From: Chrysochromulina tobinii
Lineage: Eukaryota > Haptophyta > Prymnesiales > Chrysochromulinaceae
Assembly (NCBI GenBank): GCA_001275005.1
Contig: JWZX01002393.1
Location: 1 to 22,381, forward strand
Direction: 5' to 3'
Length of the DNA stretch: 22,381 nucleotides
Position numbers and translations under genes: made by a program. Below, piece after piece: positions 1-22,381 of the stretch (the first letter of the stretch is position 1; each line of letters opens with the position of its first letter). The notes beneath the pieces were generated by a model. It was not told the DNA's origin. It saw only the letters and a program-made list of their open reading frames with translations, and made no database searches.

Positions 1-416
1 AGGATGGCATTTGTTGAGTTCGGTATAGCATGTCCCGCCGCCTTAGCTAGAGACCGGTTTGGTTTCTTTCTAACAAGCCTCTTACCCCCGGTCACTCCAT
101 TATGCTAGTGAGGTTGGTCTCTCCCTGCAGAAACTGGTTCTCTCGCCGTTTCTCGCCGCAGCCACCCCCTTCGTCGTGAGGCAGCGCCGTGTTGGGCCTT
201 GACCGTGTACACCCCCGCTCAATAACGAATAACTTGTTGTTTCTTCGTCGAGAGGTTTCTAATGGGATTTTTAAGGACTGTACAAAGCCCTCGAGAGAGG
301 ACGGGTGGAGATAATGATGAAGAGGGGAGACGCGGAGGAGAGAACACAAGATGACGCTCTCTACGTGCGTCTTTGGGGGACAACCTCAGCTCGTCGAGAA
401 AAAGAGGGTGGTCGGT
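1..416. other. Region downstream of arsS, no gene seen
   Basis: This stretch follows the arsS stop and SECIS candidate and presumably holds the rest of its 3' UTR and intergenic DNA. It is less GC-rich than the coding regions (for example AATAACGAATAACTTG near 221). Only short ORFs without recognisable domains occur on either strand. No polyadenylation signal or RNA gene could be assigned. Confidence 0.5.
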
Positions 417-491
417 GGTGCGCATGCTCCTTCAGCCAGTCAGCGAGCGTACATCGTCGCCCTTACGCTGCCAGCGTCATCCGCGCGCACC
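417..491 (-). promoter_or_regulatory. Candidate SECIS element in the arsS 3' UTR
   Basis: On the minus strand, outer arms GGTGCGC (485-491) and GCGCACC (417-423) form seven perfect pairs. Just inside is ATGA (480-477), then exactly 12 nt, then AA (464-463), and 20 nt later TGAC (442-439); an alternative 3' partner is TGAA (434-431). AGCGT before the AA pairs with ACGCT on the far side; an alternative pairing is GGCAGCG with CGCTGAC. This follows the eukaryotic SECIS plan: non-Watson-Crick quartet, helix of about 12 nt, unpaired AA in the apical loop. It lies over 100 nt after the TGA, as eukaryotic SECIS elements must. No folding program was run, and the helix II pairing is imperfect. Confidence 0.6.
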
Positions 492-569
492 GAAGGTGTG
501 GTGGTGTGTGGAAGGCCCAGAGCGCGCCTATGCCGCGCATGCTCGGCCTTCACCATCGGGCGTCGTCGC

Positions 570-1993
570 CTACGACCCGACGGTGACCCCCTGTCATGAG
601 GAGCCCCTGCCAGCGGTGCAGCCGAAGCAGTGGTTGCTCGTGGCCACCGCGCTGCCCGTGAGCTCCTCGAAATTCTCGACCTCGTAGATCGAGCTGCGCC
701 GCTGGCTTGCCGGCGGGAGTCCCAATGGTATCGCGAGCGCCTGGTTGAAGTCGCAGTCGTAGAGTGAGCCGTCGTGGCTCACCGACACGAGCGTGCGGCA
801 CATGGTGTCGTTGACCGTCACCGGGTTGAAGGAGTCGACCAGCAGCTTCATATACTCCTCGAGCTTCCCCTGCTTGGCGAGCAGATCAGCGAAGCGCTTG
901 ATCGGCATGTTGGTCATCGTGAAGAGCTCATTAAAGACGACTCCAAATTTGGACTGGAGCTCCTCCGTGTACTTCGCATGCAGCATCTCCTGCGCCGGCG
1001 GCAGGAATGCGCCGCCGGGATTGTACACGAGGTCCAGCTTGAGCCCACTGCCCGCGACGCCGTAGCCGAGCGCGTTCAAGCGCTTGAGGCCTTCGATCGA
1101 GCGTTCGAAGACCTTGCTGCCACGCTGCGTGTCGACATTGCGCTCCGAGTAGCACGGTAGCGAGGCTGTGCGCGCGAGGGAGCGCCGCAGCGGGCGTCGG
1201 CCGAGGGTTCGAGGCCGCCGTGCGATCTCGGAGCATATCTCGGAGCATATCTCGGAGATGGCCGAGGGTTCGAGGGCGCCGTGCGCCCAAACAGGGCGGT
1301 AGGCAAGGCGGCCAGGGCTGCGCAGGCGCAGGAGCGAGCGCGCGGCGGCTCACCAACGATTCGGACCTTGTGCTCCTTCAGAAAGGGGCCGAGCCACTGC
1401 ATGCTCGGCTCGACCATCACGGTCAGGTTGCACCGGTCGATGACCTCCACGCCCAGCTTGGTCGCGCCGATCACGAGCGGCTTGAAGGCGCTGTTCATCT
1501 CAGGCGCGCCTCCGGTAATGTCGAGCGTCTCGATCGAGGGTGAGGCTGCGAGCACCTGGAGCACGCGCGCGACCGTCTCATCCGACATCGTCTCCGTCCG
1601 CTTCGGTGACGACTCGACGTGGCAGTGGTTGCACGCCTGGTTGCAGTACAGCCCGACGTTGACCTGCAGCATCGTAGTGGCCCGGCGTGGCAGCTCCTCA
1701 CCCTTGGTGAGGAGTCCACGCTCTGCGAGGAAGGAGTTGAATTCGGGCACGCCGATCGCATCGAGCGCGCGGCGCCGCTTCTTTTTCTCCTCGAGTGTCA
1801 GCCGCTTCTGACCCATCGCACGCAGCGAAGCTGCCGTAGTTTCCACGCCTTCGCTGTCGCCCGAGTTCTCAGCCATCTCCTTGAGTGTGATCGGAATGAG
1901 CGACTCGTCGGAGGGGGCGGTATTCAATAAACGAGTGCCCGCCTGCAGGCTGCGGCGGACATTGACGGTCCGGTAAAATCGTCGGCTGAGCAT
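570..1993 (-). CDS. arsS: Arsenosugar-biosynthesis radical SAM enzyme ArsS, two exons, probable selenoprotein
   Basis: Exons 1993-1354 and 1165-570 join to 411 codons plus stop. Visible: a radical SAM cluster motif C-x3-C-x2-C (C117, C121, C124), the DITGGAPE strand, VIDRCNL, then LPCYSERNVDTQRG across the junction, LVYNPGG, NMPIKRF, MCR and DCDFNQ. The tail reads NHCFGCTAGRGSS, then TGA, then QGVTVGS and TAG. These are hallmarks of ArsS (TIGR04167; some bacterial members carry Sec). In bacteria ArsS acts after ArsM methylation and attaches a SAM-derived deoxyadenosyl group to dimethylarsenic, leading to arsenosugars. The TGA is therefore read as Sec404, with C393 and C396 nearby. The Arg-rich N-terminus (MLSRRFYRTVNVRR) resembles an organelle transit peptide, probably mitochondrial (inference). 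No arsM is in the window. If TGA is a true stop, the protein ends after residue 403 without its last conserved Cys-type residue. Confidence 0.88.
594..596 (-). other. In-frame TGA, predicted selenocysteine codon of arsS
   Basis: The TGA follows HCFGCTAGRGSS, where ArsS homologues have Cys (or Sec) in a GSSC/GSSU motif. The frame stays open for seven more codons (QGVTVGS) that resemble the family's usual continuation, then meets TAG at 570-572. A SECIS-like hairpin starts about 100 nt further downstream. Recoding is an inference from this context. Confidence 0.75.
1166..1353 (-). other. arsS intron (188 nt) carrying direct repeats
   Basis: On the minus strand the donor is GTTG|GTGAGC and the acceptor CACAG|CCTCG. 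Removal joins V-A-S-L-P-C-Y in frame, as ArsS family conservation requires, and total coding length becomes divisible by three. Inside, a 26-nt sequence (1199-1224 and 1260-1285, one mismatch) flanks almost three copies of the 12-nt unit ATCTCGGAGCAT. Confidence 0.9.
1199..1285. repeat. Nested direct and tandem repeats inside the arsS intron
   Basis: Copies of a 26-nt unit beginning GGCCGAGGGTTCGAGG lie at 1199-1224 and 1260-1285. Between them, 1225-1259 is a 12-nt tandem repeat (ATCTCGGAGCAT, about 2.9 copies). The GGTTCGAGGCC stretch resembles a tRNA B box, but no tRNA fold surrounds it. Confidence 0.85.
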
Positions 1994-2232
1994 GCCAATC
2001 TAAGCCTCCCGCATTCTGGCGACTTCACACCAAAAGTTTGTCGTCAGTCAGCCTACCGAGCCTCCAGAGTACTCCAGAGCTCTAGAGAGACGGCATTCTT
2101 GATTGCCCTTGCCATCAACAAATCCGCAAATGGCGGGTGTGATATTATGCAGTGCCCCTCCAACAATTGACGCTTGACCTCCGACAATTTACCCTCCGGC
2201 ATCCGAGGGCAGGATCAGCATTTCAGCGGGCG
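1994..2232. promoter_or_regulatory. Shared upstream region of divergent arsS and CEP57-like genes
   Basis: These 239 bp separate two divergent start codons, so both promoters and 5' UTRs must lie here. Two short upstream ORFs precede the CEP57-like start: ATG at 2130 (15 codons) and ATG at 2147 (7 codons), both closed before 2233. No TATA box stands out. Confidence 0.55.
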
Positions 2233-3992
2233 ATGGCGTCGGAGCTGTCCGAGCTTTCCTCCCTAGCACGTGGCCTTGACCTAGGCGCAAGCGTGGCCAG
2301 CGGTGGCGCCTCAAAGGCGTCCGCCGAGGACTCGCTCCGCGAGCTGCGTTCCACGATGCAGGCATCGGCCTTTGACTTGCCGCCGGTCGACGATTTCCTC
2401 ACGGGATCCGTGCTGCCCCGAAGCAGTGCAACGTTGTTGCAGTCGACCTCTCCAAAACGTGCTACACCCGCCCCCGCTGGAAAGCTCGACTCTCCCACCC
2501 ATGCGGCCGGTACGCCGCTGCTCGACTCCTCGAGCTCGTACCAGCTGCCAAACACAGCCAATACCAAGGCCGTGGCTAAGGCGATGACAGCGCTCAAGGA
2601 CAAGGTCGCGTCGCTAACGGCCGAACGTGACGAACTCTCGAGCAAGCTCTTGCAGCTGCAGACGGCGCACAATGCGTTGCGCGCGAGCTCCGCCGACGCA
2701 CAGGCCATCGCGGCCAACGAAGTGCGCACGGCGGTCGCGGGCATGGACGCTCAGAACCTTGCGCTGCACAAGGAGCTCGATTTCGTCAAAGACATCGCGC
2801 AGGCGGCCGAGTCGGAGAAGCGTACGGCGCAGGCGAGCGTCATCTCGCTCGAACGGCAGCTCGCGGGCATGCGCTTCGACGCCGAGACGCGCATGCACGA
2901 GCTCGAGGCGCGCGCCACGAGCGCCACGCAGGCCGAGGCGCTCGCGCAGTCGCGCGCGAGAGAGCTCGAGGCCGAGTTGGGGGCCCTGAAGGCCAAGTAC
3001 GACGAGCAGGCGGGCCAGAAGAGGCGCGTGGACGAGGCGTTACGCTCTGTGCTCGCCATCAACGAGGCCCTTCTCACCCGCGTCTCCGCAGTCGATGGGC
3101 CTCGTGCGCAGTACGCCGCCAATGCTGGCGCGCTGCCTCGTAGGGTCCTCAAACGGCCGACAACACGCCCATTGGACGCCTTGATGGACCCCGATGGCGG
3201 CGGCGATGCTGCCGCTGCTGCTGCCCACCTTGGGTTTCGCGGCGCAGCTGGTGCTGCTGGTGCTGCTGGTGCTGCGGGCGCTGCGGGCGCTGCGGGCGCT
3301 GCGGGCGCTGCGGGTGCTGGTTGCAGCCTCAGGCTTAGCGACGACGATCCACTAGCACTCGCAGGTTGGATGCTACCAGGCTGCGGCGGGCGCGACAAGC
3401 TCCGCACGACGAGTGCCGTCGGCTTGGCGGACGCGGGCTTGGCTGATCGGGCTCGTATGACCCAACACGTCGCGATGCGCACCTGGGCGATGGAGGCCGG
3501 GTCTGCGAGCGTGAGCTCATCCGAACCGCTGAGGACGGAGGCGCTCGAAGACCAGGCGCGGCGCCAAGTGCCACTTGCACCGTCACTTGCGCCAGCAGAG
3601 GGGCCGCCGCAGCCGCCACCGCCGCCACCGCCGCCACCGCCAGCCCCGCCGTCGTGCAACTGGGAGATGTGCGGGGCGTCGCTCGCCTCCGCCTCGTACG
3701 AGCTGCCGCACGAGCTCTTCGCAGAGGGTGCCGCGGCGCGAAGAAAGCATGCGGCGAGCTGCGACGCGCCGCTAGGATCACACATGCTGGTGCGTGCGGA
3801 GCGCCCGAGCGTCGGGGTGGAGCGCGCCACCCTCGCGTCGTATCGGCGCTCGGCCGACCACCCGGTACGTACCGGTACAGCACGTCGAAAGGGGTATGAT
3901 GGCAACTACGACGCCACCTTCTCTGGCCGCCCCTCCGCACGCCCCCAGAGTGCGTACGACTCGCTCGCCGCCGCCGTACAGCAGTACGATCT

Positions 3993-5026: not shown

Positions 5027-8000
5027 CTAGACAAGTCCACCTCGACCTCGAGCTTGCACTTGGGGAGCCGCAAGATCACGTTTCTCGCGGCGGCGGCGGC
5101 GATCCCGTTGCGGCTGCACCTGCTGCTGCACCTGTTGCTTCTCGGTGGAGCCTCCTCCTCTGGCATCTGCACGCTGCTTACGATTCGAGCCGCGTCGCGC
5201 ACGCGAGGACGACTGAGCTGTCGGCTTGCCGATGGCCGGCATGCGCTCGTCGACGGCCAGCAGCTCGAGGAACCCCACGAAGCTCAGCGTTTGTGACGGC
5301 TCGAGGCCGCGCTGCTGGTAGATCGCGTGAGCCTCGCGCATGCCGATCGTCGAGGAGGCGGCTCTGCGCACCGCTGCGCTCTTGGGCCCTCGGGCAGTGG
5401 AAGCGCTCGGCTCGAGGGCGGTGCTCGCCGCACGCTCAGCGAGGAGGGCGAGGAGGGCGACAAACTCATGGAGGGTAAGGGCACCGTCGCCGTCCGTGTC
5501 GAGGTCGTCGAAGAGATGGGCCAGCGCGCGCAGCTCTGCACGCCCAAACGGAGCCGCGGTCCCTGCGACCTTCTCGAGGAAGGGCGTTGCTGACGTCAGC
5601 AGGGCCGCCACGCGCCGATGCCTGATGGCCTCCGCTTGGGCAACGGCGGGGCTGCAGAGGGGGAGCTCCGATGGGACTTTGGCCGGTGCGCTCCCGTCGT
5701 CCAAGGCGGCTCCTTCGGCACTGCCTCCGGTGGCGAGCAGGGAGGCGAGTAGCCAGGGATCGGCTGTCTTGGCAATGGGGCTGGCGGCCATCAGGTGCAG
5801 GTAGAGCTCGTTCAGGTCGATGGTCCCGGAGTGGTCCGTGTCTGCACGCTCCCACAGCAGCTGTGACTCCATGTGCGTTGGCGGTCGGCCACCCGCCTCC
5901 ACCGCCACGTTGTTCACCAGCGCGCAGAATTCGTCAAACTCGAGATAGCCTTTCCGCCCGCGGTCGTACCGGCGCATCAGCAGCACACACTCCTCTATTG
6001 TCTCATCAGGCGCCCTCAGTACCGACCCACGGCGCCCGGCGCCAGCACGTTCGCTGTGGAGGGCGTTGGCGTCCGGGGCCTTTGCAGTCTGGCGACGGTG
6101 TTCAGCAGCAGCGCTCTCGAGTTTGACCATGGAGCGCGCCGCCTCGTGCAGCACACGTGCCCGGTAGGCCTCGAGCTCCGCAGGTGCCTCGAGCTGCAGT
6201 CCAAGCTGCTCCAGAAGCAAGAGTACCTCGAGCACGTCCAGGCTGCCCGCAGTCGCAAGGTCCGCAGTCTCAAAGAGGCAATCCACCTCCTTGGTTGAGA
6301 AGCGCACTCCGTTCTGACGGCTAATGAGCCCGAGTAGCCGTGCAAACTCATCCGGCTGCAACCGCCCGTCGCCATCGGCGTCAAAGCGCTCATACAGCGC
6401 GAGGGCGGACGATAGGTGGTCCGACGAAAGGGCCGCGAGCGCCGCAGCGCCCTCACGGCTCAGCTTGGCGCTCGCGGCCTGAGACACAAGCTTGGCGAGG
6501 TAGGCGTGGAGACGCTCGTCCTCGACCTCGCTGATCTGAGCCCGCTCGCGCGCGCGCTCGGCCGCACTCGCCTCCGCCTGGGCATCCTGGGCGGCCTCGG
6601 CCGCGTTCGTGTATCGCGGGGGGCGGGTGTGGGCGCCGTATCGGACGCGAGGCACCTCGAGCGTCGGGTGTGGGGAAGTGTGACATGCTCCGGGAGAAGA
6701 ATCCCGCGCAACGGGCGCCGTACCGAGCGGATCAGGCGCCGTGCCGAGCGCCTCGTGCGGCGCCAACGGCTCGAGAAGGTCGAGCGTCGCGGCGGCTCGC
6801 TGCTGCTGCTCGCGGAGCGCCTTCTCCCGGGCGCTCACGGACGATGTGAGCGCACCTGGCGCAGAGGCTCCGAAGACAGCCACCGCCGCCTTGCCGCGCA
6901 GACCCGACTCGCGCTTCGTCTTGATCCCTTCGAACCAGGGCGAAAACTCCGAAGACCACAGCGAGCTTTCGTAGCGCTCGTCCTCATCCGCCTCGTCGCC
7001 GGCGCCAGAACTGCCGGCGGTGATGCCAGCGGTGGTGCCAGCTTGTCGTTGCTGTCGTCGTCCGGAGGCCTTCGCTCGTCTCGTCGTCTTGTGCTTGTCG
7101 CGTGCCTGCACTACCTGAGCGCCTCTCATCGCCCCCTCGCCCTCCATGGCCGCCACCTCGCCCTCGGCCACGGGGCCATAGAGCAGCTCAAGCCATGCGC
7201 AGATGTCGACCCGGCCAGCGGATGCAATGGCAGCAAACCAGAGGCGAGCCTCCATCGGCCCAATCGGGCGCCTTGACGAACCTTGCAGGAACTTTGCATG
7301 CGAGGTGAGGCCGGACGCATGCGCTGCCTTGAGCGCTTCCTCAAACTCATCGAGATCGAGGCTGCCCGACGCGTCACGATCGGCGCGGGCGAAGCACTCA
7401 ACGGCGGCACTCGAGGCAGAGTCGCTCACCCTCAGCAGCACCCTCGCACCGTTCGCGTCACCGCCGAGCCGCTCGAGACAGCGCTCAATCATCTTGGCAC
7501 GATGCGCCTCATTTAGCGCCGCCTCATTCACAGCCTCGTTCACAGCCTCATCCGGCGCCGCCATGCTCGTCGGATCGGTCATCGCGACGGCCGCGGCCGA
7601 CATTGTGATGCGGGCCACCTCCGGACTTAGACTCGGCGCGGCGGCTGCTGCGAGCCGCTTACCGCTCGACGATGCAGCTCTCCGAGGTAGACCCTCTCGT
7701 GCGACCATCTTGACGAAACTCGCGCCCTCCGCGACACGTGGCACGATGCCGCTCGTGAGCAGCCGTACGAATTCGTTAAAGTCCACGTGCCCGTTGCCGT
7801 CCGTGTCAGCAAACACAAAGAGCGCCTGCGCCGCCTCCACAGCTTCGTTTCCACAGCGCAGGCGCTCATCTACACCAGCCGAGCTGGGCGCCGTGCTGGG
7901 CTGGACGATGCCCTTGCTCGCGCCCATCTCCCTGGAGCCGGCAGGAGGCGAGCTCAACATCTCTCGAAGCTCGGCCTCGCGGGTCGTGTGCGTGCACGAG

Positions 8001-10138
8001 GCGATCGGCAACGCAACCGGCGCGTTGTGGCCCGCAAGGCAATCGGTAGCCAGGCCTGATGCGATCTCCGATGCAGATGCGATCTCCGATGCAGATGCGA
8101 TCCCAGAGCGCTCCCCGATCGAGCCGAGCGCTGTCTTGAGCGAGCGCAACGGTCGGGCGAGGCCTGTCCACGCCCACGCGTCCTCGCGAGCGTCTTCGGT
8201 GGCGGCCCGAGGCGCGAGTGCCGCCGCCGCCTTCTCCGCCACCTTCTCCGCCGCCTTGGCCGCCGACGACCCCTGGGGCATCCCGGGCTTTTCGGCCGCT
8301 CCGATGGCCAGTCGCGTGTAGGCGTCACTCAAGACTGCCTGCGCGCCCTTGCTGTTGGCAACCGTAGCTGCATTGGAGGCGGCGGCGGAGGCGGCGGCCG
8401 CCCGAGACGGCGCCTCGGGTGCGAGCGCCCGAGTTACAAAGGCTGTCTCGGGTGCCCGAGACGGCGCCTCGACTGCTCGAGACGGCGCCTCGGGTGCCCG
8501 AGACGGCGCCTCGCGTGCGAGCGCCCGAGTGACAAAGGCTGTCTCCAGAGCTGGGACGAGCATGAGGACGAAATCGGTGCGCTCGAGCGTGCCGCACTGC
8601 TGATGGTCAAACCGCCGGAAGAGGCGCAGCGCGCGCAGCAGCAGCCGATGATCGGGCAGCTGGTCAAGATCGAAGTGAGAGCCAACGGAGCGCGCTTGCT
8701 CAACCAGTTTCGTCAAATAGGTCTCGTCTGAGAGCAGCGCGGAGTCGGCGGCTGGCACGAGCGAGAGATGGCCGAAGCGCGCCGTGTGCTGCTCGGCGCT
8801 CGCCGCACCGCCGTGCGCCACCTCCGCCGCATGCCCGGGTGAGGCCGCGTAATCAAGCGTCGCGTGCACGCCCAAGTGAAACGTCGGCGCATGCATCGAG
8901 GAGGGTGCACGGTACAGCTCTACCATCGGCAGCGCGTCGCGTCCCTGTAGGTAGTGCACGAGCTCGTTCAAGTCCACCTTGCCGTCGCCGTTTAGATCCG
9001 CGCGCCGAAACGCCGTGTGCCAGTCGCCCTTTCGCTCAGCAAAGGGGTTAGCGTCGACGGCGTCGGCGCCAGCGCTGGACGCGGCAGCGTCGTCGCCCCC
9101 CCCGCTCGCACTGCGGGCATGAGCGAGGAAGGTATTGAGGGCGGCATACAAGGGTGGAAAATCTTCCGGGCCAAGAAGAGCGCCCACGCTCGTGTCGAAC
9201 GCGGCAAACAAGTGCACAGCACCCTCGAGCTGAGCGCCGGAGAGTGGCGTCAGGGAGTCGATGTGTGTGAGTGAGCTGCAGTGCGCCGTGAGCATGATCC
9301 CGTACAGATGGCGCGCCGCATTCTGGTGGCGCGTGGCGAGGATGCGCTGCTCGACGGCCATCGCACCGCCCGCCGCCGCCGCCGTCGGCCTCGCCCTCGT
9401 CACACTCGCCGCCGTTGGCTGCGCCACGCTCGGCACTCTTCCAGCAGCGAAGGTGCCGATGGGCGCGAGCTCATCCACGAGATCGTCACCAAGCGTTAAC
9501 CTCTCGCGGACGAGCTGCGTGTAGCGCCGGAGGGCCTCGGAGCGCCTGCGCGAGCCGGCACGCTCCGCATCGCTCGCAAAGTGCCCGTGCGATGCCTCAA
9601 AGCATATGTCCAATTCGCAGAGCTCCTTGCGCAGACGCGCTGCCTCGAGCGCCTGCACGGCGGCGCGTGACGCGGTGGCGCTCTCCTCATCCGTGAGCGG
9701 TGGCGCCGTCTCGACGCCTCGCGCCACCATAGCCGCAGCAGCCACGGTGCGCCCGACGTCGACGAGCTCGCCGTTGGTGGATGAGCGCACCATCGGGGCC
9801 GCCGGCTTGAGCTGCACTGCCCACGGGTTGGGTGGCATCGTCTTGATTGGCTTGGAGGGCGCCGATCCGTAGGGCTGCGCACCGCCGCTGTCTGGGTCGA
9901 TCGCTGCCACACGGAACGAGTACCACGTCTCCGGCTCGAGCGTGTCCACGACCGCGTGCCCAGCATCGGAGCGCGTGTCTGAGATCAAGATGGCCCAATC
10001 GCCAGCGCCGCCCGCTTGTGCGCTGATGCAAAAGCCGAGTGGCCGTGGCTCACCGGTCGGCACGGTCCAGCGCAGCTCCGCCGAGCGTACGCCCACGCTG
10101 ACAACCGTCGGCCGGCCGGGACGCTGCGCCGCCGACAT
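5027..10138 (-). CDS. Giant FN3 and multi-EF-hand calcium-binding protein
   Basis: 1703 aa from ATG 10138 (MSAAQRPGRP). An upstream in-frame ATG at 10234 adds 32 residues that look like translated leader. Residues about 7-100 form a fibronectin type III domain (RPTVVSVGVRSAELRWTVP, LEPETWYSFRVAAID). EF-hand loops follow at about residue 379 (DLNGDGKVDLNE), 776 (DTDGNGHVDFNE), 918 (DRDASGSLDLDE), 1250 (DADGDGRLQPDE), 1387 (DRGRKGYLEFDE), 1430 (DTDHSGTIDLNE) and 1542 (DTDGDGALTLHE). Degenerate partners sit near 311, 508, 965, 1288 and 1590, suggesting six EF-hand pairs. Ala/Glu-rich linkers and a basic Gln/Arg-rich tail follow. No signal peptide or membrane segment is seen. A calcium-sensing cytoplasmic scaffold is plausible, but the partner is unknown. 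Confidence 0.88.
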   Translation of the reverse strand: MSAAQRPGRPTVVSVGVRSAELRWTVPTGEPRPLGFCISAQAGGAGDWAILISDTRSDAGHAVVDTLEPETWYSFRVAAIDPDSGGAQPYGSAPSKPIKTMPPNPWAVQLKPAAPMVRSSTNGELVDVGRTVAAAAMVARGVETAPPLTDEESATASRAAVQALEAARLRKELCELDICFEASHGHFASDAERAGSRRRSEALRRYTQLVRERLTLGDDLVDELAPIGTFAAGRVPSVAQPTAASVTRARPTAAAAGGAMAVEQRILATRHQNAARHLYGIMLTAHCSSLTHIDSLTPLSGAQLEGAVHLFAAFDTSVGALLGPEDFPPLYAALNTFLAHARSASGGGDDAAASSAGADAVDANPFAERKGDWHTAFRRADLNGDGKVDLNELVHYLQGRDALPMVELYRAPSSMHAPTFHLGVHATLDYAASPGHAAEVAHGGAASAEQHTARFGHLSLVPAADSALLSDETYLTKLVEQARSVGSHFDLDQLPDHRLLLRALRLFRRFDHQQCGTLERTDFVLMLVPALETAFVTRALAREAPSRAPEAPSRAVEAPSRAPETAFVTRALAPEAPSRAAAASAAASNAATVANSKGAQAVLSDAYTRLAIGAAEKPGMPQGSSAAKAAEKVAEKAAAALAPRAATEDAREDAWAWTGLARPLRSLKTALGSIGERSGIASASEIASASEIASGLATDCLAGHNAPVALPIASCTHTTREAELREMLSSPPAGSREMGASKGIVQPSTAPSSAGVDERLRCGNEAVEAAQALFVFADTDGNGHVDFNEFVRLLTSGIVPRVAEGASFVKMVAREGLPRRAASSSGKRLAAAAAPSLSPEVARITMSAAAVAMTDPTSMAAPDEAVNEAVNEAALNEAHRAKMIERCLERLGGDANGARVLLRVSDSASSAAVECFARADRDASGSLDLDEFEEALKAAHASGLTSHAKFLQGSSRRPIGPMEARLWFAAIASAGRVDICAWLELLYGPVAEGEVAAMEGEGAMRGAQVVQARDKHKTTRRAKASGRRQQRQAGTTAGITAGSSGAGDEADEDERYESSLWSSEFSPWFEGIKTKRESGLRGKAAVAVFGASAPGALTSSVSAREKALREQQQRAAATLDLLEPLAPHEALGTAPDPLGTAPVARDSSPGACHTSPHPTLEVPRVRYGAHTRPPRYTNAAEAAQDAQAEASAAERARERAQISEVEDERLHAYLAKLVSQAASAKLSREGAAALAALSSDHLSSALALYERFDADGDGRLQPDEFARLLGLISRQNGVRFSTKEVDCLFETADLATAGSLDVLEVLLLLEQLGLQLEAPAELEAYRARVLHEAARSMVKLESAAAEHRRQTAKAPDANALHSERAGAGRRGSVLRAPDETIEECVLLMRRYDRGRKGYLEFDEFCALVNNVAVEAGGRPPTHMESQLLWERADTDHSGTIDLNELYLHLMAASPIAKTADPWLLASLLATGGSAEGAALDDGSAPAKVPSELPLCSPAVAQAEAIRHRRVAALLTSATPFLEKVAGTAAPFGRAELRALAHLFDDLDTDGDGALTLHEFVALLALLAERAASTALEPSASTARGPKSAAVRRAASSTIGMREAHAIYQQRGLEPSQTLSFVGFLELLAVDERMPAIGKPTAQSSSRARRGSNRKQRADARGGGSTEKQQVQQQVQPQRDRRRRREKRDLAAPQVQARGRGGLV
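8060..8105 (-). repeat. 18-nt tandem repeat encoding Ile-Ala-Ser-Ala-Ser-Glu
   Basis: GATGCGATCTCCGATGCA repeats just over two times on the plus strand and encodes IASASE-IASASE-IAS in the EF-hand protein linker. Confidence 0.8.
8398..8545 (-). repeat. Palindromic tandem repeats encoding E-A-P-S-R-A units
   Basis: Four copies of a near-palindromic core, CGAGACGGCGCCTCG, are embedded in units of about 21 nt. A larger duplicated block carries GTTACAAAGGCTGTCTC or its close variant at each end. The protein reads ETAFVTRALA then EAPSRAPEAPSRA variants, twice. It lies between the second and third EF-hand pairs. Confidence 0.85.
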
Positions 10139-10429
10139 CTTGGTTCCCGTCCACCAAGCACCTCCACACCTGTGCCACCCCCTCCAACCCGTATCAGTAC
10201 CTGTTCCACATTTGGTGTTTGGCGGCCGCGGCATGCCGCCAAACGAAACTCCGTCCCCGGCCCATCAGCTACACGTGTGCGTCTGCGACGCGGACCATTC
10301 GTAACATCCCCGTGCGGTTTCCACCACGACGACGCATGTGAATCCGAGCACGGCGATCCATTTGGGACACAGCTCAAAAGCGTGTCGGCTCAGGCCGCCA
10401 GGCGCGCCTCTAACCCCATCGACTTCTAC
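10139..10429. promoter_or_regulatory. Shared upstream region of divergent EF-hand and nucleotidyltransferase genes
   Basis: These 291 bp separate two divergent start codons and should contain both promoters and leaders. Both coding frames stay open into it (minus to beyond 10234, plus from before 10016), but the translations there are unstructured and overlap each other, so it is treated as non-coding. Confidence 0.5.
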
Positions 10430-19439: not shown

Positions 19440-22381
19440 ATGTGCCAACGGTGTTGTGAAAAAATAGAAGGGCAGTTATTGTGGATGCAACTGGTGGCGT
19501 TCTGCTTGGCGGCGGCGTCGGCTACGACGCCGCAGCAGCGTGACCGCTGGCAGCACCTTTCAGAACTCAAGGAAGTCGAGTACGAGCCCGTGCCTCACCG
19601 TCGGAAGCTCGAGCACACGAACTCTGCCGCCTTCGGCTCGTTCGGCTCGTTTGGTTCGCACGCACTCACATCGCTCGTCGTCTTTGTTCCGTCGTACGCA
19701 TCCTTGCCAGTTGCCGCGCCGCTCTCGCCTCCGCCACCCTCGCCCATGCCTCCACCGCGCCCCTCGAGGCCGCCGCTGCCGCTCGCGCCTCCACCACCTC
19801 CAGCTTTTCCCGGACAGAGCCTCGTGGGGCTCGGCTGCACTGACCCCGGGGCGGACAACTACGTTCCAGGTGCGACCCGAGAGGATGGTTCGTGCACCTA
19901 CAACAGCATCGTGGGGTGCACCGACTCGCGCGCTGCCAACTACATCCCCCAAGCCAACGTGGACTCGGGTCAGTGCATCATCCCCGTCATCGGCTGCACC
20001 GTCCCTTGGGCCCTCAACTACAATCCAGATGCCAATCTGTACAACCCGTTGGTCGTGGCTTGTGACTTGACGATCCGCGGCTGCACGGACTCTCGGCAGC
20101 TGGGGTACAATCCGGAGGCGTCGCAGGACGATGGCACCTGCATCCCCAGGGTGTATGGGTGCCTCAGCTCGCACGCGCTCAATTACAACATTTCGGCCAA
20201 TTCCATGCGCAGCGCGAGTGACTGCCGGTTCGTGACGTACGGCTGCATGGACCAAGCGGCGATCAACTACAACCCGCTCGCGACAGCCGAGCATCCGTCG
20301 GGGGCGCCGCCATATGCATGCAGGCCCTCCGTCCCAGGTTGTTCCTCGCCGATGGCTCTCAATTATTGGCGGGATGCGACTACGGACGATGGTTCGTGTT
20401 ACACGCCGGTACTCCTGACGCCCGCTGAGGTGACGAGCGCGTGCTTCATGCCAGCGTGCTCGACCACGAGGACGACGGGCTGCGCGCTCAATAGCGACCT
20501 CGCACTCCTCGACAACGAGATAACTCGAATCCCCCAGGCGCGCCGACAGGCGGTGGCGAGCACGTGTGCGGCAGGTAGGGCACTGGCCACATGCTACTTC
20601 TGCGACAGTCTGCTGCCGGCCGTGGCCTCCACGCCGGGCGCGGCCAACTTCACGGGGACGCGCGCCTACCTGCAGCAGATCCACAGCTTCCTCGTCCAGT
20701 TCTGCACTGGATCCCCAAACCCTCTGAACCAATGCTCGCTGATTGTGGACGGATGCGTCGTCCCCACAGCCTCCAACTACAACCCTCTCGCCACCATGCA
20801 GATCATGGCGCAGTGCGTGTACACGACGGCCGGCTGCAAGGACTCCAGCGCGCTCAACTACAACGCACGCGCGCAACTGGCAAACAACACGATGTGCCGT
20901 CACACGCGGATTGGCTGCGCTCTCCAGGGCGCGGCCACCTTCGACCCTGATGCGACGCAGCAGTGCCTTCCAATCGACAGGTGCTGCGTGTTTGACCGAC
21001 ACGGCTGCACGGAGCCGAGCGCCCTCAATTTCAATGCGCTCGCCAACATCGAGGACGGCTCGTGCAGATACCCCGCCGAGGGCTGCATGGACCCCGGCGC
21101 GCTCAACTACAATGCGAGTGCCACCGTCCAATCGACTCCAAGCCTATGTACCTATCGCTCTCGAGGTTGCCGCGAGAGGAGTGCGCTCAACTATGCATCG
21201 TTCGCTACCGTCGGGTGCGAGCACAATGTGTCCGGGGATGTGCGGCCGACCGATCCGTGCCCATGCGCGTATTCGGGCTGCGCGGTCAGCACCGCCTCCA
21301 ACTTCCGGCCGAAGGCCAACACGCTCACCCTCATCGCCGCCCGAGCTCTTGTCCTCGTCAACGGAAGCACCTACACGAGCGCGGCGGACGCGTGCACGTT
21401 TCCGGTCGTCGGCTGCCGAAATTCGGCGGCGTCGAACTACAACGCGCTGGCGACCGGAGGCGACGCCTCGTATTGCCAATTTACAGGGTGCCTGCGCTCC
21501 GATGCGCTCAACTACAATCCGACCGCGCTGGTGCCCGGCCTCTGCCGGCTGAATGTGACGGGGTGCACCGACACGAGTGCTGACAATTACAACGCGGCGG
21601 CAACCGTTGACGACGGCACGTGCATCCTTGCGGGGTGTACCGACTCGCGAAACCCATTTGGGTACGACCCGCGTGCGAACACGTACCGGTGCAACGAGGC
21701 CTATCATTTCGGATGCACCGATTCGACGGCCTTCAACTACGATCCCGCTGCCACGCACGACCCCACGGGGACCGCCTGCATGCACATCGGCTGCCTCGAC
21801 AGCACGTTCGACACGTACGGCGTGCGTCACAACGGCCAGCTGCATGGCATCAACAGCGCGGCGTACTTGGCGGGCGGCGCGTGCTGCGCACGCAGCACCC
21901 CTTACTGCCCCGATCCTCAGGCATCCAACTACATCGCCGCCTTGCACGCGAGAGCCAATCAGACCACTACCGTATGTGGGACAATGATCCCTCTGCTGAA
22001 GCCGACTCTCACGCGATGCACGTACGGTGGGTGCCTCGACCCCACGGACACCACCTACAACCCCTCCGCGACATGGAGCGACGACTCCCGGTGCAGTGGC
22101 ATCCGCGTTCCCTCGCCGCCACCCAAGCCGCCGCCACCCTCGCCACCGCCGCCCTCGCATCCGCCCTCGCCGCCACCGCCGCCGGTACCACCACCTTCTC
22201 CGCCGCCTCCTTCGCCGCCGCCGCCCTCGCCGTCGTCACCTCCTCGGCCTCCTCCATCACCGCCGTCGCCGTCGCCGGAGCCCTCGTCGCCCCCCTCCCC
22301 TCCTGCGCCACCTCGACGACCGCAGAGTCCGCGGCCACCAGCTTTGCCCCCGTCCCCGAGCCCCTCGCCGCCCGCCCTCCC
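19440..22381 (+). CDS. Secreted cysteine-repeat (GCTD..NY..A..DGSC) protein with Pro-rich linkers, 3' end outside window
   Basis: The frame is open from 19416 to the window end, about 980 codons without a stop. ATG 19440 gives a 28-residue signal peptide (hydrophobic LLWMQLVAFCLAAASA); ATG 19485 would leave only 13 residues. A Pro/Ser linker (about 95-128) precedes some 21 repeats of about 20-40 residues, each GC-[TMLRK]-x-x-x-A-x-NY-x-x-x-A-x-(D-D-G-S)-C, such as GCTDPGADNYVPGATREDGSC. An unrelated Cys-rich insert of about 110 residues (20407-20748) interrupts them. After the last repeat (near 22078) comes a Pro/Ser tail (SPPPP, PPPSPPPP) reaching the window edge, like algal hydroxyproline-rich wall proteins. 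Two Cys per repeat suggest disulfide-closed modules. A cell-surface or scale role is likely; the binding partner is unknown. Confidence 0.88.
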   Translation, partial: MCQRCCEKIEGQLLWMQLVAFCLAAASATTPQQRDRWQHLSELKEVEYEPVPHRRKLEHTNSAAFGSFGSFGSHALTSLVVFVPSYASLPVAAPLSPPPPSPMPPPRPSRPPLPLAPPPPPAFPGQSLVGLGCTDPGADNYVPGATREDGSCTYNSIVGCTDSRAANYIPQANVDSGQCIIPVIGCTVPWALNYNPDANLYNPLVVACDLTIRGCTDSRQLGYNPEASQDDGTCIPRVYGCLSSHALNYNISANSMRSASDCRFVTYGCMDQAAINYNPLATAEHPSGAPPYACRPSVPGCSSPMALNYWRDATTDDGSCYTPVLLTPAEVTSACFMPACSTTRTTGCALNSDLALLDNEITRIPQARRQAVASTCAAGRALATCYFCDSLLPAVASTPGAANFTGTRAYLQQIHSFLVQFCTGSPNPLNQCSLIVDGCVVPTASNYNPLATMQIMAQCVYTTAGCKDSSALNYNARAQLANNTMCRHTRIGCALQGAATFDPDATQQCLPIDRCCVFDRHGCTEPSALNFNALANIEDGSCRYPAEGCMDPGALNYNASATVQSTPSLCTYRSRGCRERSALNYASFATVGCEHNVSGDVRPTDPCPCAYSGCAVSTASNFRPKANTLTLIAARALVLVNGSTYTSAADACTFPVVGCRNSAASNYNALATGGDASYCQFTGCLRSDALNYNPTALVPGLCRLNVTGCTDTSADNYNAAATVDDGTCILAGCTDSRNPFGYDPRANTYRCNEAYHFGCTDSTAFNYDPAATHDPTGTACMHIGCLDSTFDTYGVRHNGQLHGINSAAYLAGGACCARSTPYCPDPQASNYIAALHARANQTTTVCGTMIPLLKPTLTRCTYGGCLDPTDTTYNPSATWSDDSRCSGIRVPSPPPKPPPPSPPPPSHPPSPPPPPVPPPSPPPPSPPPPSPSSPPRPPPSPPSPSPEPSSPPSPPAPPRRPQSPRPPALPPSPSPSPPAL
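19813..22095 (+). repeat. About 21 tandem protein modules of the GC..NY..A..C type
   Basis: The modules are highly diverged at DNA level but share GC near the start, A.NYN in the middle and C at the end. Canonical modules start near 19819, 19915, 20080, 21004, 21562 and 21712. Divergent ones lose the DDGSC ending or lengthen the second half (for example near 21196 and 21277). Confidence 0.85.

Follow-up and report, generated by a model that had tools for sequence, protein, structure and literature searches.

The minus strand of the analysed window (the whole stretch of 22,381 nt, contig C1251 in an assembly of 53 Mb from the eukaryote Chrysochromulina tobinii) contains a complete two-exon arsS gene, in which an in-frame TGA is very probably translated as selenocysteine (Sec404) by the nuclear Sec machinery via a hairpin in the 3′ untranslated region, with translation stopping at the following TAG. 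The Sec reading, first proposed from the sequence alone, was supported by the assignment of the protein to TIGR04167, the position of the TGA in the conserved Cys/Sec column, the coding continuity past the TGA, the presence of a Sec-decoding system in the genome, and a SECIS-like hairpin downstream. The gene product would be a eukaryotic ArsS, a radical SAM enzyme transferring 5′-deoxyadenosyl onto dimethylated arsenic in arsenosugar synthesis. The adenosylation of arsenic in this pathway is assigned to a radical SAM enzyme in a passage of a review (PMC12159101). The features of the locus are listed in Table 1.

Table 1. Positions of the ArsS features in the window.
Feature	Position	Strand	Basis
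ArsS exon 1 (ATG, N-terminus MLSRRFYRTVNVRRSLQAG, radical SAM core)	1354..1993	-	PF04055 Radical_SAM on spliced protein
Radical SAM CxxxCxxC motif, CNQACNHC, residues 117–124	1622..1645	-	sequence; columns in relatives
Spliceosomal intron, 188 nt, GT-AG (GTGAG...CACAG)	1166..1353	-	spliced sequence
ArsS exon 2, C-terminal DUF3641 part, TAG included	570..1165	-	sequence and Pfam
TGA within the frame, proposed codon for Sec404	594..596	-	frame and family column
Proposed post-Sec tail, QGVTVGS	573..593	-	frame
Proposed true stop, TAG	570..572	-	frame
SECIS-like hairpin	417..491	-	structure-pattern scan; control stretches and shuffles

The ArsS gene and its in-frame TGA

The frame had been described as intact and complete apart from the TGA, and this was borne out by the clean intron, the length of the spliced product (1993–1354 plus 1165–570; 411 residues, with residue 404 being Sec if the TGA is read through), and the TIGR04167 profile, which scored 422.7 bits with the read-through protein (cut-off 300). 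The profile match spans positions 3–302 of 303 and so extends beyond the TGA. Pfam assigned Radical_SAM (PF04055) and DUF3641 (PF12345) to the spliced protein; other radical SAM families of NCBIfam were rejected, their scores being far under their cut-offs. The Cys columns of the CxxxCxxC motif were invariant in a 45-row alignment of ArsS relatives, and the residues across the splice junction (IVASLPCY) were the same in relatives (compared with P0122). The N-terminal part (SLIPITLKEMAENSGDSEGV...RLTLEEKKKRRRALDAIGVPEF) is like that of P0122 and of P0154 from Haptolina ericina, and its first 20 residues look, by eye, like an organelle presequence. By eye, the intron contains a short tandem repeat similar to ATCTCGGAGCAT (window 1201–1260). 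The main text describing the published C. tobinii genome (59 Mb, average one intron per gene; PMC4580454) contains no word beginning with 'selen' or 'arsen'.

On the minus strand, the frame reads ...NHCFGCTAGRGSS-TGA-QGVTVGS-TAG, and the C-terminal Cys-rich motif with the Cys/Sec column is present in it (HCFGCTAGRGSS-TGA-QG). Relatives were collected by two similarity searches, of which the best 120 of approximately 8000 matches each were taken, giving 223 proteins together. The proposal that the TGA of the ArsS frame sits at the conserved Cys/Sec column was upheld: the column is Cys in 136 of the 223 listed relatives. The codons after the TGA also proved to be in the family style, with Gln-Gly following it; all 136 motif-bearing Cys relatives have Gly at +2 after the Cys, as the window has after the TGA. 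Gln directly after the Cys is found in 18 of the 136, and two Cys relatives (P0013 and P0179) have C-termini with GSSCQGATV, near the QGVTV of the window.

Residues following TGA triplets were counted on both strands of 47 sequences from the genome, some of which overlap. Among the 4436 triplets, x-Gly followed in 281 cases, Gln-Gly in 14, and QG-x-T-V in three, which we infer to be the three copies of the ArsS site in the set (the window, L001, and L002). Judged from these residues, the post-TGA match to the family is more than chance. Elsewhere in the window, a 1735-aa open frame at 5027–10234 on the minus strand shows, by eye, a number of motifs resembling EF hands, among them DTDGNGHVDFNEF, and an open frame at 19440–22379 on the plus strand has many Cys-rich GCTDxxAxNYNPxAxxDDGSC-like repeats (by eye) and runs off the contig end.

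Hairpin and selenocysteine decoding

The hairpin scan required (A/G)TGA, unpaired AA or CC 7–14 nt further along, NGAN, six or more pairs in helix II, and helix I; in the strict form, ATGA, AA, and a helix II of at least 9 pairs were required. A single candidate was obtained in the next 594 nt of the contig (480–431, helix I out to 491–417). It comprises helix I, the ATGA core (480–477), a helix II of 10 pairs interrupted by one bulge, an unpaired AA (464–463), a small apical stem, and TGAA (434–431). The core begins 113 nt beyond the TGA, in the 3′ region and outside the coding sequence, and the combined energy score is −34.6. In control sequences scanned with the strict form (191,866 nt, 323 stretches of 594 nt), no site was found at or below −34.6, one at −30, and four at −25; of 1000 dinucleotide shuffles, two reached −34.6 and four reached −25. 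The hairpin is regarded as a candidate SECIS element of the ArsS 3′ untranslated region, recognised by its pattern.

Strict-form candidates were also found downstream of 9 of the 11 other in-frame-TGA genes of the genome (seven GPx, ArsM, and ArsM-like), their best scores ranging between −24.4 and −52.7. For the GPx gene L020, a hairpin was obtained under the CC rule only, and for L021, the 1500 nt beyond the match held no strict-form hairpin. The unconstrained fold of the ArsS hairpin is 4.9 kcal/mol better than its SECIS form, compared with 0 to 2.8 in ten other SECIS-like hairpins, and its 3′ core is TGAA, the core being NGAG in eight of those ten. The folding energy model gives no credit for the non-Watson-Crick SECIS core. 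The Rfam model SECIS_1 gave no match in window positions 1–2300 at E values up to 10 and none above the cut-off genome-wide (best candidates scored); it was set aside as uninformative because the GPx hairpins were missed too. MAFFT alignments of nine SECIS-like elements were rejected, as the stems were misaligned by eye.

The nuclear genome is judged from its gene content to decode Sec. One of six tRNA-Sec matches lay above the Rfam cut-off and has the anticodon TCA (ARAGORN), SepSecS (contig C322) and SelD were found in the same assembly, and 9 of 13 GPx matches hold one TGA each, in all nine at the active site NVAxxUG (one reads NAAxxUG). Nine Sec-GPx candidates (among L013–L023) are many for a single alga. 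The SepSecS protein matched a C. tobinii database protein without a mismatch over 355 aligned residues, with one gap of 47. PSTK was detected as a partial match (52 bits, cut-off 382). For eEFSec, the PF21208 profile had no match in the assembly, and the six checked of 16 TIGR00475 matches were EF-Tu, IF-2, LepA, two BipA-like proteins, and eIF2-gamma. The missing eEFSec can be accounted for by an incomplete assembly (53 Mb compared with 59 Mb published), by introns, and by profile models derived from prokaryotes.

In the proposed mechanism, the SECIS hairpin would cause the TGA to be decoded as Sec, and translation would end at the TAG seven codons past it. Sec404, together with Cys393 and Cys396, would lie in a mobile C-terminal tail and may bind or reduce trivalent arsenic or act in redox at the active site; the Cys of other members would have the same role. 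For the Cys relative P0013, AlphaFold gave a model with mean pLDDT 85.7 in which the last ten residues, including the Cys of the Sec column, are below 50, and this low confidence fits a mobile tail, with no bearing on function. By sequence, no solved structures were found for P0013. Foldseek matches of the model were other radical SAM enzymes, and the C-terminal tail was not placed.

ArsS relatives and the Cys/Sec column

At the Cys/Sec column, the 223 listed relatives comprised the 136 with Cys, 81 ending exactly there, one with Trp, and five unclassed, proportions that are uninformative for the whole family, as the relatives were chosen by similarity to this gene and include near-copies. The 81 end exactly after GSS or GST as protein sequences, the TGA being known from DNA for the window only. 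Near-copies are many among them, and 51 rows were left after thinning. Of the unclassed, P0031 has Cys in a variant motif, and the other four end differently or are without the region. P0218, the Trp relative, fell within the group of ended rows in the tree, and its Trp is probably a TGA translated under another code (TGA = W); it also has a CBS domain (PF00571), N-terminal by eye. P0002, a 99% identical relative, has an end that equals the antisense translation of this part of the gene (window 373–687, plus strand); it is probably a chimeric or inverted metagenome contig.

Relatives ending naturally at this codon had been named in the sequence-only reading as evidence against Sec. Such endings were found in number, but they do not act as a refutation: gene callers stop at a Sec TGA, so the endings fit a Sec codon, and in the tree they alternate with Cys. 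If the TGA were nevertheless a true stop, the extreme C-terminus of haptophyte ArsS would have been lost, and QGVTVGS would be a remnant or a chance frame. Besides the 81 endings themselves, this is favoured by P0012 and P0137, which are transcript-derived and called complete, and by the free fold of the hairpin, which differs from the SECIS form. Among the motif-bearing listed relatives, however, endings occur at this one codon only and alternate with Cys, the post-TGA residues are those of Cys relatives, the organism decodes Sec, and a SECIS-like hairpin lies downstream, so that a true stop is improbable. The TGA is also one base from TGC and TGT, as would suit a gene that became a pseudogene recently or a mistake in sequencing or assembly, but P0001, a 98% identical protein from ENA contigs, ends at the same residue as the pre-TGA position of the window, as do many divergent relatives, the rest of the frame is undamaged and its intron clean, and the SECIS-like hairpin would be left unexplained; this origin of the codon is hardly credible.

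For the tree, 263 motif rows of at least 250 residues were reduced to 222 by near-copy removal (112 Cys, 57 prokaryotic Sec, 51 ended, the window, and Trp). Of the 57 prokaryotic Sec rows, 15 were kept (180 rows), and 57 Cys rows of the first search were dropped at random, giving a 123-row tree. It was a quick maximum-likelihood tree, built without the trait column and without bootstrap, with the root placed at the prokaryotic Sec rows. The 51 ended rows, the Trp row, the window, and 18 Cys rows fell into a single group of 71 (SH-aLRT 95). The algal-named rows (Haptolina, Rhizochromulina, Guillardia, Tribonema, Micractinium, and others) were within this group, most rows being nameless, and the bacterial-named rows checked (P0072, P0079, P0088, and P0217) were outside it. 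The 15 sampled prokaryotic Sec rows formed one side of a branch with SH-aLRT 97. The minimum number of Sec/Cys changes over the tree was five, with every ending taken as Sec, and support within the tree was moderate. Cys was probably exchanged for Sec within eukaryotes more than once, on a tree in which the window is the only algal row whose TGA is known from DNA. In the sister pair P0195 and P0179, one sequence stops at the Sec column and the other has Cys there, which makes the pair a candidate for a recent Sec/Cys exchange.

Prokaryotic loci were sought with the DNA pattern CTAGxGSS-TGA, which gave at least 119 loci in genome contigs and four in viral contigs (123). By tblastn, 66 of the 123 listed loci encode ArsS, all of them prokaryotic, with the TGA at the column, as the pattern demands. 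No ArsS was found in the viral contigs by protein scans or by the pattern scan, the four pattern matches being without a tblastn ArsS match. TIGR04167 is counted among prokaryotic selenoproteins in a portion of PMC13188914. Sec-ArsS in bacteria, as noted in the sequence-only reading, is already established, by the family name and at least 66 prokaryotic TGA loci. With Sec-ArsS in so many prokaryote genomes, bacterial contamination, or a bacterial gene acquired with its bacterial SECIS, was also considered, but it is most unlikely given the spliceosomal intron, the eukaryote-type N-terminal extension, a hairpin that is eukaryotic in type and outside the coding region, and a tree that groups the window with algae across the SH-aLRT 97 branch from the sampled prokaryotic Sec rows.

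Known selenoproteins and the arsenic pathway

The window protein shares with TIGR04167 ArsS (rSAM_SeCys, the 'arsenosugar biosynthesis radical SAM (seleno)protein') the PF04055 and PF12345/DUF3641 layout, the CxxxCxxC motif, and the C-terminal HCxxCTAGxGSS-C/U motif, with the proposed Sec at the same column as in the prokaryotic loci. It differs from prokaryotic Sec-ArsS in being encoded by a nuclear gene with an intron, an N-terminal extension, and a 3′ untranslated SECIS-like element, and, unlike the prokaryotic Sec forms, it stands in the tree with Cys-type algal relatives.

Algal selenoproteins with an iron-sulphur name have been catalogued before. Among the 42 selenoprotein families in a survey of 137 algal species is 'FeSoxR: FeS oxidoreductase', and the main text of the survey contains neither 'radical SAM' nor 'arsen' (PMC7539508); passages of two further papers report a selenoprotein 'Fe-S oxr' in Aureococcus (PMC5917014) and a FeSoxR match in Picochlorum (PMC11092101). 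The UniRef name 'Fe-S oxidoreductase' is carried by the ArsS relatives P0184 (Tribonema) and P0076 (Brocadia), and with this name on a Tribonema ArsS, algal Sec-ArsS may already be catalogued, without the arsenic link. The algal FeSoxR family may be ArsS, the two having been compared by name only. The name is ambiguous, since the same label stands for GlpC (in a passage of PMC1794560) and PTHR43551 (in a portion of PMC13188914) among prokaryotic selenoproteins. The earlier suggestion that no eukaryotic nuclear Sec-ArsS had been described was accordingly not confirmed, as algal FeSoxR may be the same protein. Among the papers listed from the open-licence PMC literature, none was found tying algal FeSoxR or Sec-ArsS to arsenic.

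A second selenoprotein of the arsenic pathway is indicated by the best ArsM match of the genome (L026, C100:9193–9909, minus strand; about 282–286.4 bits, cut-off 263), which contains one TGA. Its frame, ALACUVAGAPLP, fits the UxxG Sec site of NF008823 as given in a portion of PMC13188914, and a strong SECIS-like hairpin (score −48.0) lies downstream. The arsenite methyltransferase ArsM is like ArsS in having a proposed Sec form in this genome (TGA at ACUVAG) and acts at the preceding step of arsenic metabolism; it differs in belonging to an unrelated methyltransferase family. Sec-ArsM is listed for prokaryotes (PMC13188914, in part), and its occurrence in eukaryotes is stated in print (PMC2398784, in a passage). 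An ArsM-like gene (L028, C2206:25003–25731, minus strand) has two in-frame TGA codons, the first of which may, by eye, be inside an intron; the second reads UVSG, fitting UxxG, and a SECIS-like hairpin (−30.9) was found 268 nt after the match.

The finding extends to two probable Sec enzymes within a single arsenic pathway and, should the relatives' endings be Sec, to a repeated Cys/Sec exchange in algae. The wider proposal is that ArsS of haptophytes and other marine algae went from Cys to Sec more than once inside eukaryotes, independently of prokaryotic Sec-ArsS and each time with a eukaryotic SECIS, and that in C. tobinii ArsM and ArsS are both selenoproteins, making arsenosugar output selenium-dependent; we consider it an even call. 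Selenium supply may be linked to arsenic handling and detoxification in this alga, as the sequence-only reading had suggested.

Many algal gene models may end before the likely catalytic residue, and, provided that the endings are Sec, the switching between Sec and Cys among algae would be a natural experiment on what Sec contributes to a radical SAM enzyme. Marine algae are held to be the chief producers of arsenosugars in food webs. Should selenium be required for both ArsM and ArsS in haptophytes, its supply could determine how much arsenic these algae convert to arsenosugars, and this is directly testable, C. tobinii being both cultured and sequenced.
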